A stretch of DNA of 64,000 bases, taken from Actinocatenispora sera (GTDB lineage: Bacteria > Actinomycetota > Actinomycetes > Mycobacteriales > Micromonosporaceae). The first letter of the stretch is position 1. Every line of letters begins with the position of its first letter. The stretch covers positions 4,774,001 to 4,838,000 of the forward strand of contig NZ_AP023354.1 in NCBI RefSeq assembly GCF_018324685.1, read 5' to 3'. A model generated the notes under the pieces. That model worked only from the letters and a program-made list of their open reading frames with translations. It was not told the origin of the DNA and did no database searches. This document shows, piece after piece, positions 8,801 to 16,835 of the stretch. The position numbers were made by a program, and so were the translations under genes.

Positions 8801-8923
8801 CGTTGCGCCCTCCCGCCGTCTCGCACCCGTTGCCGCACCATCGTGACCCACCCCCGCCCTGGGCGACCGGCCGGGCCACCCACACCGCCGCGGACGCCCC
8901 CGCGCTGTGGCACGATTCCGGAT

Positions 8924-9367
8924 GTGACCAGCACATCCGCGGCCACGCGGCGCCGCAGCGACCTGGCCCGGCTACGCCGGGTGCGCGACCGCATCGACCG
9001 GGAGTACGCGCAGCCGCTGGACGTCGAGGCGCTCGCCCGCGGGGTGAACATGTCGGCCGGCCACCTCAGCCGCGAGTTTCGCGCCGCGTACGGCGAGTCG
9101 CCCTACTCCTACCTGATGACCCGCCGGATCGAGCGGGCGATGGCGCTGCTGCGCCGCGGCGACCTGAGCGTCACCGACGTCTGCTTCACCGTCGGCTGCT
9201 CGTCGCTGGGTACCTTCAGCACCCGGTTCACCGAACTGGTCGGGGTGGCTCCCAGCGTCTACCGCCGGCAGTACGCCGACGCCACCGAAGGGATGCCGTC
9301 CTGCGTGGCCACCCAGGTCACCCGGCCGGTCAGGAATCGAGAAGTACCGGCACCCTCACGCCGCTAG
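8924..9367 (+). CDS. AraC-type HTH regulator
   Basis: A 147-residue regulator consisting almost only of the AraC/XylS double HTH domain: LDVEALARGVNMSAGHLSRE is the first HTH, and TDVCFTVGCSSLGTFSTRF with PSVYRRQYA is the second. There is no sensor domain. GTG at 8924 follows a CACGAT hexamer by 7 nt, so a leaderless mRNA is likely. The last codons overlap the promoter of the VOC gene that follows, 10 bp downstream. Such AraC/VOC pairs suggest that this activator drives the VOC gene, and probably the second copy of the same promoter at 13917. Confidence 0.88.
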   Translation: MTSTSAATRRRSDLARLRRVRDRIDREYAQPLDVEALARGVNMSAGHLSREFRAAYGESPYSYLMTRRIERAMALLRRGDLSVTDVCFTVGCSSLGTFSTRFTELVGVAPSVYRRQYADATEGMPSCVATQVTRPVRNREVPAPSRR

Positions 9368-9370
9368 CGT
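9329..9370 (+). promoter_or_regulatory. promoter/activator site of VOC gene 1
   Basis: GTCAGGAATCGAGAAG at 9329-9344, then 20 nt, then a TAGCGT hexamer at 9365-9370. The predicted transcription start falls on the ATG at 9378, so the mRNA would be leaderless. The identical arrangement occurs at 13917-13958. The site lies inside the 3' end of the AraC gene. Confidence 0.7.
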
Positions 9371-9377
9371 GACCGGC

Positions 9378-9788
9378 ATGGACATCACCATCGCCGAGGC
9401 GTTCCTGCCGCACGACGACCCGGACCAGGCGCTCGCGTTCTACCGCGACACGCTCGGCTTCGAGGTACGCAACGACGTCGGCTACAACGGCCTGCACTGG
9501 ATCACCGTCGGCCCGCCCGGCCAGCCCGGCACCTCGATCGTGCTGTACCCGCCGGCCGCCACCCCCGGCCTGACCGACCAGGAGCGCCGCACTGTCGAGG
9601 AGATGATGGCCAAGGGCACCTTCACGATGATCAACCTGGCCACCCCCGACCTGGACGGGCTGTTCGAGCGGCTCGCCGCCGCCGACGTCGAGATCGTGCA
9701 GGAACCCATCGAGCAGCCGTACGGGCGCCGCGACTGCGCGGTCCGCGACCCCGCCGGCAACATGATCCGCATCAACCAGCTGCGCTGA
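9378..9788 (+). CDS. VOC (glyoxalase/bleomycin-resistance fold) protein
   Basis: A 136-residue protein of the vicinal-oxygen-chelate superfamily with two beta-alpha-beta-beta-beta modules: DPDQALAFYRDTLGFEV in the first, and LDGLFERLAAADVEIVQEP with RDCAVRDPAGNMIRINQ in the second. Members are metal-dependent isomerases or dioxygenases, or bind drugs. ATG 9378 is preferred over GTG 9369 because a -10 hexamer ends 7 nt before it. Next to an AraC regulator and upstream of an efflux and UvrA-like cluster, a drug- or aldehyde-response role is a reasonable inference. Confidence 0.88.
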   Translation: MDITIAEAFLPHDDPDQALAFYRDTLGFEVRNDVGYNGLHWITVGPPGQPGTSIVLYPPAATPGLTDQERRTVEEMMAKGTFTMINLATPDLDGLFERLAAADVEIVQEPIEQPYGRRDCAVRDPAGNMIRINQLR

Positions 9789-9794
9789 ACCGCC

Positions 9795-12554
9795 TCAGAA
9801 CCTCGCCGCGACACCCAGCCGGCCGAGCGCGGCGACACCCCGTGCGGCGTCCTCGCCGCCGGCCAGCAGCAGGCTGCGCGCCGCCTGGTACCGGCAGCCG
9901 GCCGCGGCCAGCGCGGCCGAGGTGGCAAGCACCGCCGCCCGCTCGCCGGCCAGCAGCGCCGCGGCACGCGCCACCATCGCCTCGGCGACCGGGTTGCCGG
10001 TCACGATCCGCGCGGCCGCAGCGACCCGGTCCCGGGCCTCGCCGGCGCCGGCGAGCACCGCGGCCTCGGCTCGCAGCGCCACATACCAGTGCAGCCACAG
10101 CCACGTCACCCACCGCCACACCCGGTCGGGCTCGGGCGCCAGCCGCTCGGCCGCCGCGGCGGCGTCGCCGCGATGCAGCAGCAGCATCGCGTCGAACACC
10201 GCCCCGTAGCCGTGGCTGCGGCCCGGCGCCGCACCCAGCCGGCCCAGCACCGCCCGCCACTCGTCGGCCGCGGCCCGATCGCCGCGCAGGCCATGGATCA
10301 TCGCCACCCCCGCCACCGCCGACCCCAGCGCCGGCTGCGCCGGGCTGCCGGCCCGCCGCCAGCCGTCGCGGAACCGCACGCTCGCGGCGAGTACCTCGTC
10401 GACGTCGACGGCCAACGACCCGGCCACCAGCAGCCGGCTGGTCGCCCGGTGACCGTCCTCGGCCAGCAGCGGATGCGCCGCCAGCCGCCGCGCGAAGCCG
10501 CGGGCGGCGGGCAGATCGCCCACCCCGAGGCTCGCCTCCGCCGCCTCACCCAGCGCATCGGTCAGCTCGTGCGCCGCCGCCGGAGTCGCCGCCAGATCGG
10601 TCACCAGCACGATCCGGCGCCGGGCGGTGTCGGCCGCAGCGAACGGCGCCCCGTCCCAGCTCTGCGCGCTCAGCAGCGCCTCCAGCGCGGCCGACTCGGC
10701 CAGCGGGTCGCCGGTCGCCGCGGCAAGCCCCACCGCCCGGTGTGCGGCGGACAACGCCTCCGGCACCGCGATGGTCGCCGGCCCGTCCGCACCCCCGTAC
10801 GCGTCGGCAAGCACGCCCGCCTCGGCCAGCGCCACCGCCGCCCGCGCCGCCGGATCACCACCCGCCGACTCCCGCGCCGCATCGACCAGCGCCACCACCC
10901 GGGCAGGCTCCGGCGGCCGCACGAACGACCCCGCGAAGCGGTAGGCGTCACTGGCCGCACTCGCCGTGTCCACGGCCGCGGCCGCCGCATCCCCGGCACT
11001 GCGCGCCGCCGCCGCGGCGGCCAGCCGCAGCCGGTACGCATCGTCGCCGCGCATCCGGCAACCCGCCACCGCGGCCGCCGACCGCAGCGCCGCAGCGGCC
11101 AGCGCCGGATCGTCGGCCAGCGCCGCGGCCTGCTCGTACAGCGCCTGCGACTCGCCGACCAGGTTGCGCCCGAACGTGAGCCCGGCCAGCTCCCGGGCCA
11201 GCCGGTACGCCGCCGCGCGCCGCGCCGGCCGCCCCGCCGCCCAGCCCAGCGCCGCCCGCAACTCGTCGGCGACCGCATCGAACCGGGCCCGCCAGCCCGG
11301 CCCCACCACCGTCAACTCACCGGCCACCGCCAGACACCAGTCCAGGTGCCGGTCGCGCGCCTCGACCTCCCCACCGGCCTCGGCGAGCCGCCGCAACCCG
11401 TACTGGCGGATGCTCGCCAGCGCCCGGTACCCGGTGCCGCCGGCCACGGTCGTGACCTGCAACAGGCTCTGCTCGGCGAGCCGGCCCAGCCCGTCCGCCA
11501 CCGCACCGGCCGGGGACCCGCACACCTGCGCCGCCGCCGGCACGCCGAACGGCCCGACGAACACCGACACCCGGTGCAGCAGTTGCTGGTCGGCCGGCGC
11601 CAGCAGATCGTGGCTCCAGTCCAACGCCGCGGCCACCGAGGCGTGCCGCGCCGCGGCACGCCGGCCGCCCGCGAGCAACCGCAGCTGGTCCGACAACCCC
11701 GCCGTCAGCCCGTCCAGCCCCAGCGTCGGCCACCGGACCGCCGCCAGCTCGATCGCCAACGCCACCCCGTCCAGCCGGCCACACAGCGCCGCGATGCCCG
11801 CCGCCAGTTCCGGACCCGGCCGCCGGCCGGCCGCCGCGCCAGCCCGCGCCACAAACAGGGCCACCGCCTCGGAATCGGCCCCACCGGCCAACGACAGCGG
11901 CGGCACCCGGTACACCTGCTCGTACGGCGCCGACAGCGGCGCCCGACTGGTCGCCAGCACCGTCACCCGCGGGCAGGCCGCCAGCAGCCGCTCCACGAAT
12001 GGAGCCACCGCCTCGCGCACCTGCTCGCAGTTGTCCAACACCAGCAGCATCCGCCGATCGGCCAGATCCGCCAGCACCGACTCGACCATCCCGACACCAG
12101 GCCGCTCACCCAGCCCGCATGCATCGGCCACCGCCGCCGCCACCAGCCCCGGCTCGGTCACCGGCACCAGATCCACGAACCCGACCCCGTCGGCGTACCC
12201 GTCGGCCAGCTGCGCCGCCACCGAAAGCGCCAACCGGGTCTTGCCCACCCCACCCGGCCCGACCGCCGTCACCTGCCGGTGCTCGACCAACAGCCCCGCC
12301 AGCTCCGCACGCTCCCGGCCCCGACCAACCAGCGAGGTCACCGGCGCGGGAAGCGGTGCCCTGCCTCCCACCGGGGGCGCGTACCGGGCCAACGCCCGCC
12401 GGTCCGGCGCATCCAACTTGCGCAGCAGCGACGACACGTGACTTTCCACCGTGCGTACCGAAATGACCAGCCGGGCGGCGATCTCGGCGTTGCTCAGATG
12501 CTCGCCGAGCAGCCGCAACACCTCCGCCTCCCGGGCCGACACCGCCGTGTTCAC
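9795..12554 (-). CDS. LuxR-type regulator with NB-ARC-like ATPase and TPR region
   Basis: A 919-residue signal-integrating regulator. Unusually, the LuxR HTH is at the N-terminus (residues 3-58, AREAEVLRLLGEHLSNAEIA and RTVESHVSSLLRKL), not at the C-terminus as in LAL proteins. A nucleotide-binding domain follows, with Walker A GPGGVGKT near residue 100, Walker B RRMLLVLDNCEQVREA near 168, and ATSRAPL sensor segments. The remainder (about 330-919) is an alanine-rich helical repeat likely to sense a ligand. It is transcribed divergently from the MFS exporter at 12678 and is the obvious candidate to control it. Confidence 0.88.
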   Translation of the reverse strand: MNTAVSAREAEVLRLLGEHLSNAEIAARLVISVRTVESHVSSLLRKLDAPDRRALARYAPPVGGRAPLPAPVTSLVGRGRERAELAGLLVEHRQVTAVGPGGVGKTRLALSVAAQLADGYADGVGFVDLVPVTEPGLVAAAVADACGLGERPGVGMVESVLADLADRRMLLVLDNCEQVREAVAPFVERLLAACPRVTVLATSRAPLSAPYEQVYRVPPLSLAGGADSEAVALFVARAGAAAGRRPGPELAAGIAALCGRLDGVALAIELAAVRWPTLGLDGLTAGLSDQLRLLAGGRRAAARHASVAAALDWSHDLLAPADQQLLHRVSVFVGPFGVPAAAQVCGSPAGAVADGLGRLAEQSLLQVTTVAGGTGYRALASIRQYGLRRLAEAGGEVEARDRHLDWCLAVAGELTVVGPGWRARFDAVADELRAALGWAAGRPARRAAAYRLARELAGLTFGRNLVGESQALYEQAAALADDPALAAAALRSAAAVAGCRMRGDDAYRLRLAAAAAARSAGDAAAAAVDTASAASDAYRFAGSFVRPPEPARVVALVDAARESAGGDPAARAAVALAEAGVLADAYGGADGPATIAVPEALSAAHRAVGLAAATGDPLAESAALEALLSAQSWDGAPFAAADTARRRIVLVTDLAATPAAAHELTDALGEAAEASLGVGDLPAARGFARRLAAHPLLAEDGHRATSRLLVAGSLAVDVDEVLAASVRFRDGWRRAGSPAQPALGSAVAGVAMIHGLRGDRAAADEWRAVLGRLGAAPGRSHGYGAVFDAMLLLHRGDAAAAAERLAPEPDRVWRWVTWLWLHWYVALRAEAAVLAGAGEARDRVAAAARIVTGNPVAEAMVARAAALLAGERAAVLATSAALAAAGCRYQAARSLLLAGGEDAARGVAALGRLGVAARF

Positions 12555-12677
12555 CAGCCCATCCTCCCGTACCGGCGGCCACCGGCCCCGGCTGCGTGGA
12601 CGAATCCGTGGTCAGCACGGAGGCGCGACACCCCACCGGCCGGCGATGCTGACCGCAGTCCACCGACAGGAGCACCG

Positions 12678-13955
12678 ATGCCCACCATCCGACCGCACAG
12701 CGCGGTCCCCGCCGCGTACCGGCCGGTGCTCGCCCACCCGCCCGTACGGCGGCTGCTGGCCGGCCTCGCCGTCTCCGCCCTCGGCGACGGCATGAGCTTC
12801 GTCGCCGTCGCCTGGCTCGCCCTCACCCTCGCCCCACCGGCCAGCGCCGGACTGTGGGTCGGCGGCACCGTCGCCGCCTACACCCTGCCCGGAGTCGCCG
12901 GCGCGCTGCTGCTCGGCCGCCGCCTGCGCCGGCTCCCCGCCCGCCGGCTGGTCCTCGCCGACGCCACCCTGCGCGCCGCGTTCCTCGGCCTGATCCCGCT
13001 GACCTGGCTGACCGGGCACCTCACCCTGCCCCTCTACGCGACACTGCTCGCGATCTCCTCGCTGCTGCACGCCTGGGGCAGCGCCGGCACCTACACGCTG
13101 CTTGCCGAACTGCTCCCCGCCGACCACCGGCTCGCCGCCAACACCCTGGTCAGCTCGCTGACCTTCGCCGCCACCATCGCCGGCCCCGCCCTCGCCGGGC
13201 TGCTCGTCACCTCCCTGCACCCCGCCCTGGTCCTCGGCCTCGACGCGGCCAGCTACCTCGCCCTCGCCGCCGCCGTCCTGCGCACCCGGCCCGACCACCC
13301 CACACCCCCCGCACCCGATCCGGCCACCACCCACGGCGGCGCCCGGCTGCTGCGCACCCACCCACACCTGCTCGGACTGCTCGCCCTCACCTGGCTGTTC
13401 AACCTGCTGTACGGCCCCGTCGAGGTCGCCCTACCGCTGCACGTCACCGCCGACCTGCACGCACCCGGCACCCTGCTCGGCACCTACTGGATGCTGTTCG
13501 GCATCGGCGCCCTGCTCGGCGGCCTGACCGTCGGCACCCTGCGCCGGCTGCCCCTGTGGCCCACCACCCTGGCCATCGTGCTCGGCTGGGGACTGACCCT
13601 GCTGCCGTTCGCCGGCCACCTGCCCACCGCCGCCACCATCGCCTGCTTCACCCTCGGCGGCGCCATCTACGGCCCGTTCGTCCCGCTGTCGGTGACGCTG
13701 ATGCAGCAGACCGCACCGCCACAACACCTGGCCACCCTGCTCGCCGCCCGCAGCGCCGTCCTGCTCACCGCCGCACCCCTGGGCACCGCCCTTGGCGGAC
13801 CACTGACCACCGCCCTCGGCCCCGCCGACACCCTCGCCGCCTCCGGCCTCGCCACCGTCACCCTCGGTACCGCCGCCGCCGGCGTGCTGCTGCTCACCCG
13901 CCGCCACCGACAGCCCGTCAGGAATCGAGAAGCCCGACCCGCCACCCGCACGTAG
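12678..13955 (+). CDS. MFS exporter
   Basis: A 425-residue protein with about 12 hydrophobic segments. The opening HPPVRRLLAGLAVSALGDGM and the central loop with two six-helix halves match enterobactin-exporter/macrolide-efflux type MFS proteins (EntS/MefA-like). ATG 12678 lies about 8 bp after an AGGAG ribosome site. The last codons encode VRNRE because the promoter of the next VOC gene is embedded there, exactly as at the end of the AraC gene. Substrate unknown; the neighbours suggest drug efflux. Confidence 0.88.
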   Translation: MPTIRPHSAVPAAYRPVLAHPPVRRLLAGLAVSALGDGMSFVAVAWLALTLAPPASAGLWVGGTVAAYTLPGVAGALLLGRRLRRLPARRLVLADATLRAAFLGLIPLTWLTGHLTLPLYATLLAISSLLHAWGSAGTYTLLAELLPADHRLAANTLVSSLTFAATIAGPALAGLLVTSLHPALVLGLDAASYLALAAAVLRTRPDHPTPPAPDPATTHGGARLLRTHPHLLGLLALTWLFNLLYGPVEVALPLHVTADLHAPGTLLGTYWMLFGIGALLGGLTVGTLRRLPLWPTTLAIVLGWGLTLLPFAGHLPTAATIACFTLGGAIYGPFVPLSVTLMQQTAPPQHLATLLAARSAVLLTAAPLGTALGGPLTTALGPADTLAASGLATVTLGTAAAGVLLLTRRHRQPVRNREARPATRT

Positions 13956-13958
13956 CGT
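13917..13958 (+). promoter_or_regulatory. promoter/activator site of VOC gene 2
   Basis: GTCAGGAATCGAGAAG at 13917-13932, 20 nt, TAGCGT at 13953-13958: the same 16-mer, spacing and hexamer as at 9329-9370. Here the start codon is 56 nt further on and a ribosome site (GAAAGGA, 14001-14007) is present, so the mRNA has a leader. Confidence 0.7.
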
Positions 13959-14014: not shown

Positions 14015-14365
14015 ATGAGCGAAACCCAGGGCATCAAGACCGTTCTGCACCCGGTGACCGACCTCGCCGCCGCCACCAAGGTCTACGCCGCGCTGCTCGG
14101 CACCACGCCCACCGCCGAAGCGCCCTACTACGTCGGATTCGACGCCGCCGGCCAGCACATCGGCCTGGTACCCAACGGCGCCGAGCAGGGCATGACCGGC
14201 CCCGTCACCTACTGGCACGTACCCGACATCGAAGCCAAGATCGCCGAGGTCACCGCCGCCGGCGCCACGCTCGCCGAAGCCGCGCACGACGTCGGCGGCG
14301 GCCGCCTGGTCGCCACCGTCACCGACCCCGACGGCAACATCCTCGGCCTGCTCCAGGACAGCTGA
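14015..14365 (+). CDS. VOC family protein 2
   Basis: A 116-residue VOC protein. It opens with GIKTVLHPVTDLAAATKVYA, typical of PhnB-like/bleomycin-resistance-like members, and closes with ATVTDPDGNILGLLQD, which carries the last metal-ligand region. The start is ATG 14015 after GAAAGGA. Transcription should come from the promoter shared with the first VOC gene, suggesting one AraC-controlled regulon. A very strong hairpin follows, separating it from the UvrA-like gene. Confidence 0.88.
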   Translation: MSETQGIKTVLHPVTDLAAATKVYAALLGTTPTAEAPYYVGFDAAGQHIGLVPNGAEQGMTGPVTYWHVPDIEAKIAEVTAAGATLAEAAHDVGGGRLVATVTDPDGNILGLLQDS

Positions 14366-14383
14366 CCCACACCAACCAGGCAA

Positions 14384-14422
14384 GATGGTACGGCCGGCGG
14401 CACCGCCGCCGGCCGTACCATC
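14384..14422 (+). terminator. 17-bp perfect hairpin after VOC gene 2
   Basis: Arms 14384-14400 and 14406-14422 pair perfectly around a 5-nt loop. There is no T-tract, as usual in actinomycetes. It lies 18 bp after the VOC stop and 23 bp before the UvrA-like start, so it could also affect the next gene's leader. Confidence 0.7.
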
Positions 14423-14444
14423 CGCGCACACGCAGGGGGAGACG

Positions 14445-16835
<2,391 letters not shown>

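Follow-up and report, generated by a model that had tools for sequence, protein, structure and literature searches.

The stretch of DNA analysed here, referred to as the window, comprises 64,000 nt of the Actinocatenispora sera chromosome (contig NZ_AP023354.1, positions 4,774,001 to 4,838,000). It contains a gene for a small AraC-type protein (araC) directly followed by the gene VOC1 and, further downstream, an MFS transporter gene followed by the gene VOC2 (Table 1). Both VOC genes are preceded by the same putative promoter module, which consists of a 16-mer, the predicted operator, and the -10 hexamer TAGCGT. In a scan of the window the module GTCAGGAATCGAGAAG-N20-TAGCGT was found without a mismatch at 9329-9370 and 13917-13958 of the forward strand and nowhere else, the expected count from 100 shuffles being 0.00. 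Even with up to three mismatches allowed, the 16-mer alone has only these two matches in the window. Copy 1 lies within the 3' end of the AraC open reading frame and copy 2 within that of the MFS open reading frame, and in both cases the upstream gene ends with the TAG of the -10 hexamer as its stop codon. The original prediction had described exactly this arrangement, two copies buried in unrelated genes and each placed before a VOC gene, and it is borne out. Its further statement that both upstream proteins end in VRNRE is wrong; the actual ends are VRNREVPAPSRR and VRNREARPATRT.

Table 1 Location of the genes and predicted signals at the two promoter modules (all on the forward strand)
Feature	Position	Strand	Basis
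araC, 147-aa single-domain AraC/MarA-like putative activator, short tail with PxC cysteine	8924..9367	+	Pfam HTH_18, HTH_AraC; profile RamA 1.6e-12, MarA 3.8e-6
Predicted operator copy 1, GTCAGGAATCGAGAAG, in araC 3' end	9329..9344	+	pattern match; kept in relatives
Putative -10 TAGCGT of VOC1, overlapping araC stop codon	9365..9370	+	pattern; TANNNT phasing
VOC1, 136-aa glyoxalase/bleomycin-resistance superfamily protein, ATG 9378	9378..9788	+	Pfam PF00903 3.6e-17
MFS transporter, 3' end holding operator copy 2	12678..13955	+	Pfam PF07690 6.6e-30
Predicted operator copy 2, GTCAGGAATCGAGAAG, in MFS gene 3' end	13917..13932	+	pattern match
Putative -10 TAGCGT of VOC2, overlapping MFS stop codon	13953..13958	+	pattern
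VOC2, 116-aa VOC protein	14015..14365	+	Pfam PF00903 3.2e-10
Perfect 18-bp hairpin between VOC2 and UvrA-like gene	14384..14422	+	fold -47.5 kcal/mol, z -6.64, for 14366-14444
UvrA-like ATPase related to Ecm16 (7SH1)	14445..16835	+	1303 bits to 7sh1

The whole genome (7,044,238 bases, one contig) was examined by pattern and protein searches. A further exact 16-mer was found, but here TAGCGT follows after 21 and not 20 nucleotides and the gene downstream encodes a DUF1801 and not a VOC protein. The 16-mer has one additional match with two mismatches, which lies without TAGCGT inside a gene read by its sequence as prfB. A broader pattern, CAGGNNNNGAGAAG plus the -10 hexamer, yielded the same three genomic sites and nothing more. 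In the genus relatives L008 and L009 operator copy 2 occupies the same position, with one mismatch of the 16-mer in L009. The exact module was not found in viral contigs.

A fixed distance between operator and -10 hexamer

The collected loci contain 99 distinct exact 15-mer sites. Exactly 20 or 21 nt downstream of 97 of them a TANNNT hexamer is situated, the sites at L022 and L176 lacking it; an earlier, smaller locus set had given 68 of 69. The genus sample comprised four genomes including A. sera and 11 sites with no more than one mismatch, and TAGCGT follows all of these sites. At 42 of the 99 sites no AraC gene was recognised by pattern within 420 nt upstream; here, too, the TANNNT hexamer is 20 or 21 nt away in 40 cases. 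Their flanks are little conserved (0.16-0.65 bit at each position between -20 and -4), and only CG[AG]TCAGGAATCGAGAAG stands out. Since the sites away from araC keep nothing but the operator and the -10 hexamer, it is the DNA that is conserved rather than a peptide.

The same distance was found when loci were collected by protein instead of by motif. A profile of the AraC DNA-binding domain without the tail was built from 39 sequences adjoining exact sites, and weaker relatives were picked by protein score group: 20 of the 26 phylum-list rows without a locus, 20 of 29 family-list rows, 80 of 147 rows of a further list, and two more. Together with the best-match loci, and after removal of duplicates and of loci with less than 300 nt downstream, 179 loci with at least 85 bits remained. 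GAGAAG, the promoter-near half of the operator, precedes TANNNT at the 3' end of araC in 144 of these distinct relatives (63 at 20 nt, 81 at 21 nt), whereas exact GAGAAG was found in none of the 179 loci at any other spacing between 12 and 31 nt. Allowing one mismatch in GAGAAG raises the number of operator-bearing loci to 158. The controls were three purine hexamers, including two permutations, and they gave no match at any spacing in the same loci; outside the araC 3' region the GAGAAG module occurs 10 times in 1,057,188 nt. In the 158 loci the hexamer lies inside the araC reading frame 137 times, spans its stop codon three times and follows it 18 times; the araC stop codon is common to the -10 hexamer in 81 of them (67 TAG, 14 TAA). 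A second GAGAAG-like hexamer (one mismatch), situated 31 nt before TANNNT and thus about one helical turn upstream, was seen in 28 of the 179 loci.

The start codons fit this geometry. In the window the ATG of VOC1 begins 7 nt past the -10 hexamer, and the offset is 6-8 nt in 113 of 124 VOC1 sites, which take in contig-scan loci of whatever organism. The five loci whose known origin is outside the phylum (two from Variovorax, one each from Roseateles, Dyella and Eremiobacteraeota) were counted separately, and all of them have offsets of 31-39 nt. The ATG of VOC2 lies 56 nt past its -10 hexamer behind the Shine-Dalgarno-like sequence AAGGA. With transcript starts inferred from the -10 hexamers, copy 1 would give a leaderless messenger and copy 2 one with a 56-nt leader, in agreement with what had been predicted. 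Judged by sequence statistics, the rigid phasing means that GTCAGGAATCGAGAAG-N20-TAGCGT is a promoter module and not a chance repeat, as had also been proposed.

In the region 8907-8926 the araC gene has a conserved start element of its own, GTGGCACNATC, about 6 nt ahead of its GTG start. This element may act as a leaderless promoter for the regulator gene. The best upstream match to GGCACGATT has at most two mismatches in 37 of 59 type-1 loci, some of them perhaps by chance.

Co-occurrence and covariation of operator and AraC protein

The araC product matches HTH_18 (3.9e-22) and HTH_AraC (3.6e-15, in two stretches) and no other Pfam domain. It has the two tandem helix-turn-helix (HTH) motifs of the AraC type within residues 37-116 and only a short tail, so that there is no separate sensor domain. 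Among solved sequences RamA is the closest in a profile comparison; SoxS, Rob and MarA were matched as well. The PxC motif of the tail is found in 168 of the 179 relatives.

The exact 15-mer occurs in 32 of 198 genomes sampled from the phylum, with one match in all for the reversed control, and in 33 of 61 genomes of the family, where the reversed control gave none. A close AraC relative (E<1e-50) is encoded in 37 of the 198 phylum genomes, and 31 of these 37 contain the exact site; among the 161 genomes without such a relative the site was found once (G097, locus L022), and this site has no -10 hexamer. In the family sample a type-1 AraC (E of 1e-55 or less) is present in 33 of 61 genomes. 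Thirty-one of these carry the exact site and the remaining two, G213 and G243, a site with one mismatch; among the 28 family genomes without a type-1 AraC two have the exact site (G229 and G254).

The protein and the operator also vary together. Whereas GAGAAG is nearly invariant among the loci, the distal half of the operator reads TCAGGA, GCAGGA, GCAGTT, GCAATC, GCAACG, GCACGT and others. In 78 loci a glycine at column 33 of the AraC alignment goes with T at base -9, and in 78 further loci another residue goes with G, so that 156 of 158 loci fit; the two exceptions have glycine with G. On a tree built without columns 33 and 36, column 33 and base -9 change six times each; on five of the 314 edges they change together, and column 33 scores 0.83 versus 0.29 for the best other column. 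Column 36 is related to the bases at -6/-5: serine is found with GG in 101 of 117 loci, valine with AT or AC in 15 of 16, and isoleucine with GT in 7 of 12. The effective number of sequences is about 33. In an identity-corrected pair test, which is weaker than the tree test, column 36 takes the first place for -6/-5. In MarA the counterparts of columns 33 and 36 are residues 42 and 45 (1bl0, profile positions 5-101 on chain positions 14-110), and RamA has tryptophan and glutamine at the matching positions. Trp42, Gln45 and Arg46 of MarA are the helix-3 residues that contact bases, according to PMC3315485. The covariation falls on helix-3 positions that read bases in MarA.

The genus relative G002 has no type-1 AraC; its nearest AraC has alanine at column 33, and G stands at -9 of the site that precedes another VOC-like gene there, the nearest AraC's own operator being below the cut-off. 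Further small AraC genes are also present in the A. sera genome, at C1:1570291 (L117/L194) and C1:2496948 (L195), with shifted operators in the same place. These read TCGTTTTGGAGAAG-N20-TAGCGT and CACGTTTCGAGAGG-N20-TAGGCT (one mismatch in the hexamer), the latter preceding a gene that reads VOC-like by eye. At locus L351 the gene behind the operator encodes another AraC relative, so that a cascade is possible.

Proposed binding and activation, and the alternatives

Very probably, the small AraC/MarA-type activator encoded beside the short element docks on it, and direct binding and activation by this protein is, in our judgement with high though not complete confidence, the best explanation. 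The original prediction had named the neighbouring AraC as the activator, and both the co-occurrence and the covariation agree with it. By analogy, the protein would bind GTCAGGAATCGAGAAG as a monomer, HTH1 reading the upstream half (CAGG plus the preceding base) and HTH2 the constant GAGAAG half beside the missing -35 box; no -35 box is visible. Acting as a class II activator from about -41, it would bring RNA polymerase with the main sigma factor to TAGCGT. Expression of VOC1 would be switched on via copy 1, that of VOC2 (and probably of the UvrA-like gene) via copy 2, and that of the DUF1801 gene via the third genomic copy. The trigger could, as a guess, be a modification of the PxC cysteine in the C-terminal tail, a possible sensor, or simply the level of araC transcription. 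The purpose, likewise a guess, could be defence against DNA-binding or electrophilic natural products. The module, its phasing, the co-occurrence with AraC and the residue-base covariation are supported by sequence statistics; monomer binding, the direction of regulation and the assignment of the HTH motifs to the half-sites would follow the precedent of MarA and RamA.

For RamA, PMC8811837 describes a class II position on micF: the sequence CACT-7X-AAA is centred near -41, and one HTH occupies the -35 groove and touches region 4 of sigma. The layout here agrees with this type of marbox, the half-sites being seven bases apart and the centre near -41 when the transcript start is inferred from the leaderless geometry. 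The sequence differs: MarA has the consensus CACG-N7-AAA on this strand, whereas copies 1 and 2 read CAGG-N7-AAG. Some distant paralogs (L236, L256, L260) read CACG. The operator would work like a marbox but is not the enterobacterial one; the original prediction of a new operator is right for its sequence but not for its layout.

Several observations weigh against direct activation by the neighbouring AraC. The AraC profile was itself derived from proteins encoded beside exact sites, and the co-occurrence is partly built in because an araC-linked site and the protein mostly share one stretch of DNA. Independent support comes from the sites away from araC and from the covariation, and at least two of the 42 sites counted as lying elsewhere (L065, L217) follow an AraC relative or remnant not caught by the pattern. 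No recognisable operator was found in 21 of the 179 AraC loci. Six phylum genomes have a close AraC relative but no exact site: two (G110, G124) have a site with one mismatch, three (G026, G196, G054) have none at that gene, and in G186 the position is off the contig end. Conversely, exact sites occur in three genomes whose best AraC is of type 2 (G229, G254, G164); these type-2 proteins nevertheless have glycine at column 33. Column 36 and base -5, which change 15 and 16 times, do so together on only three edges, and column 33 ranks only twelfth for bases -7 to -1 in the pair test with base -9 left out. From this weak co-change and these ranks it follows that a clean code is seen chiefly at base -9.

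Of the alternatives, the one that fares best is that AraC binds the site but represses by covering the -35 region until released by a ligand. Some AraC proteins repress, and the site overlaps the position expected for a -35 box. There is, however, no such box to cover, since at a spacer of 17-18 nt the hexamer would consist of GAAG and gap bases, unlike TTGACA. The rigid 20/21-nt phasing suits an activator touching the polymerase, and RamA activates from the same position (PMC8811837). We therefore regard repression as improbable.

A still smaller chance is given to the 16-mer being the -35 element of an alternative sigma factor of the extracytoplasmic function (ECF) type with AraC as a bystander. 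The two-part layout upstream of the start site and the GGAA, which resembles some ECF -35 boxes, would be in line with this. The -10 hexamer, however, reads TANNNT, which is of the main-sigma type, the distal half varies with a residue of the AraC recognition helix, and exact sites with a -10 hexamer are absent from the 161 phylum genomes without a close AraC. Hardly credible is the last alternative, that the repeat is a conserved coding sequence (the RNRE tail) or a recent local duplication of no regulatory meaning: copy 1 does lie in a conserved protein tail and both copies are in frame, giving VRNRE, but the sites away from araC retain only the operator and the -10 hexamer, the RNRE tail is gone in L113 and L132, where the operator follows the araC stop codon, and TANNNT at exactly 20/21 nt is unexpected under coding constraint. 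Coding conservation was thus rejected on account of the sites outside araC, and the alternative sigma factor on account of the TANNNT hexamer and the AraC covariation.

Likely target genes and relation to known systems

Downstream of the sites away from araC we found genes for VOC1, VOC2, VOC3 (about 200-223 aa), DUF1801, MFS, UvrA-like, small membrane and DUF1059-like proteins. These genes were called by our own open reading frame heuristic, based on G+C at the third codon position, and not by annotation, and two gene-calling passes chose different reading frames at several sites. Ten downstream representatives were tested for family membership; one had no Pfam match and several were below the Pfam cut-off. 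The small regulon originally predicted is thus in agreement with the data, but its targets go beyond VOC genes.

The nearest solved chains of VOC1 are a glyoxalase/bleomycin resistance protein (5umw) and a glyoxalase (6cky), and both VOC1 and VOC2 resemble resistance and glyoxalase proteins of the VOC superfamily in matching the Pfam family Glyoxalase. The UvrA-like protein resembles the self-resistance proteins Ecm16 and DrrC; Ecm16 confers echinomycin resistance and DrrC is its homologue (PMC10192343). Unlike in those systems, the UvrA-like gene here follows a VOC gene and its promoter module. By approximate patterns, 31 of 55 type-1 loci have a UvrA-like signature no more than 1150 nt from the operator, compared with 4 of 38, 1 of 38 and 0 of 22 loci of more distant groups. 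The gene possibly belongs to the copy-2 unit. Its co-transcription with VOC2 is uncertain because the hairpin, possibly a terminator or attenuator, separates both genes. A large gene for a LuxR-type (GerE) regulator (9798-12554, minus strand) sits between the two modules.

With MarA, SoxS, Rob and RamA the system shares the single AraC domain with two HTH motifs, the asymmetric site in class II position and the detoxification and transporter-type targets. Unlike in the enterobacterial mar-sox-rob system, the operator has its own sequence and is mostly embedded in the 3' coding end of the activator gene, with the stop codon often common to the -10 hexamer; paralogous modules with shifted operators and a conserved PxC tail are further differences. 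No MarR-type repressor, as known from the mar system, was found among the family-tested neighbouring genes. On sequence grounds the system, whose operator is new and whose embedded layout is unusual, is MarA-like and not a new kind of regulator. The motif was not found in open-licence PMC text, searched for the exact 16-mer, its parts and the tail peptides and otherwise by titles and abstract starts of the papers listed.

The module is also present in records of Variovorax, Dyella, Roseateles and Eremiobacteraeota (loci L298, L318, L329, L350 and L284 taken together), the Eremiobacteraeota record being a metagenome bin, and close AraC relatives are encoded on Deinococcus and Cupriavidus replicons (plasmid matches H2, H3, H7, H10). 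The occurrences outside the Actinobacteria suggest transfer. A scan of a contig collection gave at least 119 stretches, 80 of them among the matches listed, from which a prevalence is not derivable.

An activator-plus-site module in which protein and DNA have changed in a matched way recurs across Actinobacteria before genes of the detoxification or resistance type. The original prediction was essentially right, but the locus would be one corner of a phylum-wide family of mar-like modules. A joint reading of all this, to which we give a little less than an even chance as a whole, is that Actinobacteria hold a large family of self-contained mar-like modules. In each, the last codons of a small AraC gene would form the operator, the -10 hexamer would often share the stop codon, and a detoxification or resistance-type gene would lie behind. 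Paralogs would keep one constant half-site and retune the other via helix-3 residues 33 and 36, giving several insulated circuits in a genome; the A. sera genome has three AraC relatives. The best-known branch, with VOC, DUF1801, MFS and Ecm16-like UvrA genes, would be an intrinsic defence against DNA-binding or electrophilic natural products, with the tail cysteine as the sensor. Modules would also have moved into other phyla.

Annotated plasmid relatives carry the label helix-turn-helix regulator only, and a large group of such small AraC proteins can now be given an operator and a promoter geometry together with a set of likely targets. The covarying pairs offer a natural data set for the protein-DNA recognition code of the MarA-like family. 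Actinobacteria include many antibiotic producers, and the findings point to a common control of resistance-type genes in this phylum.

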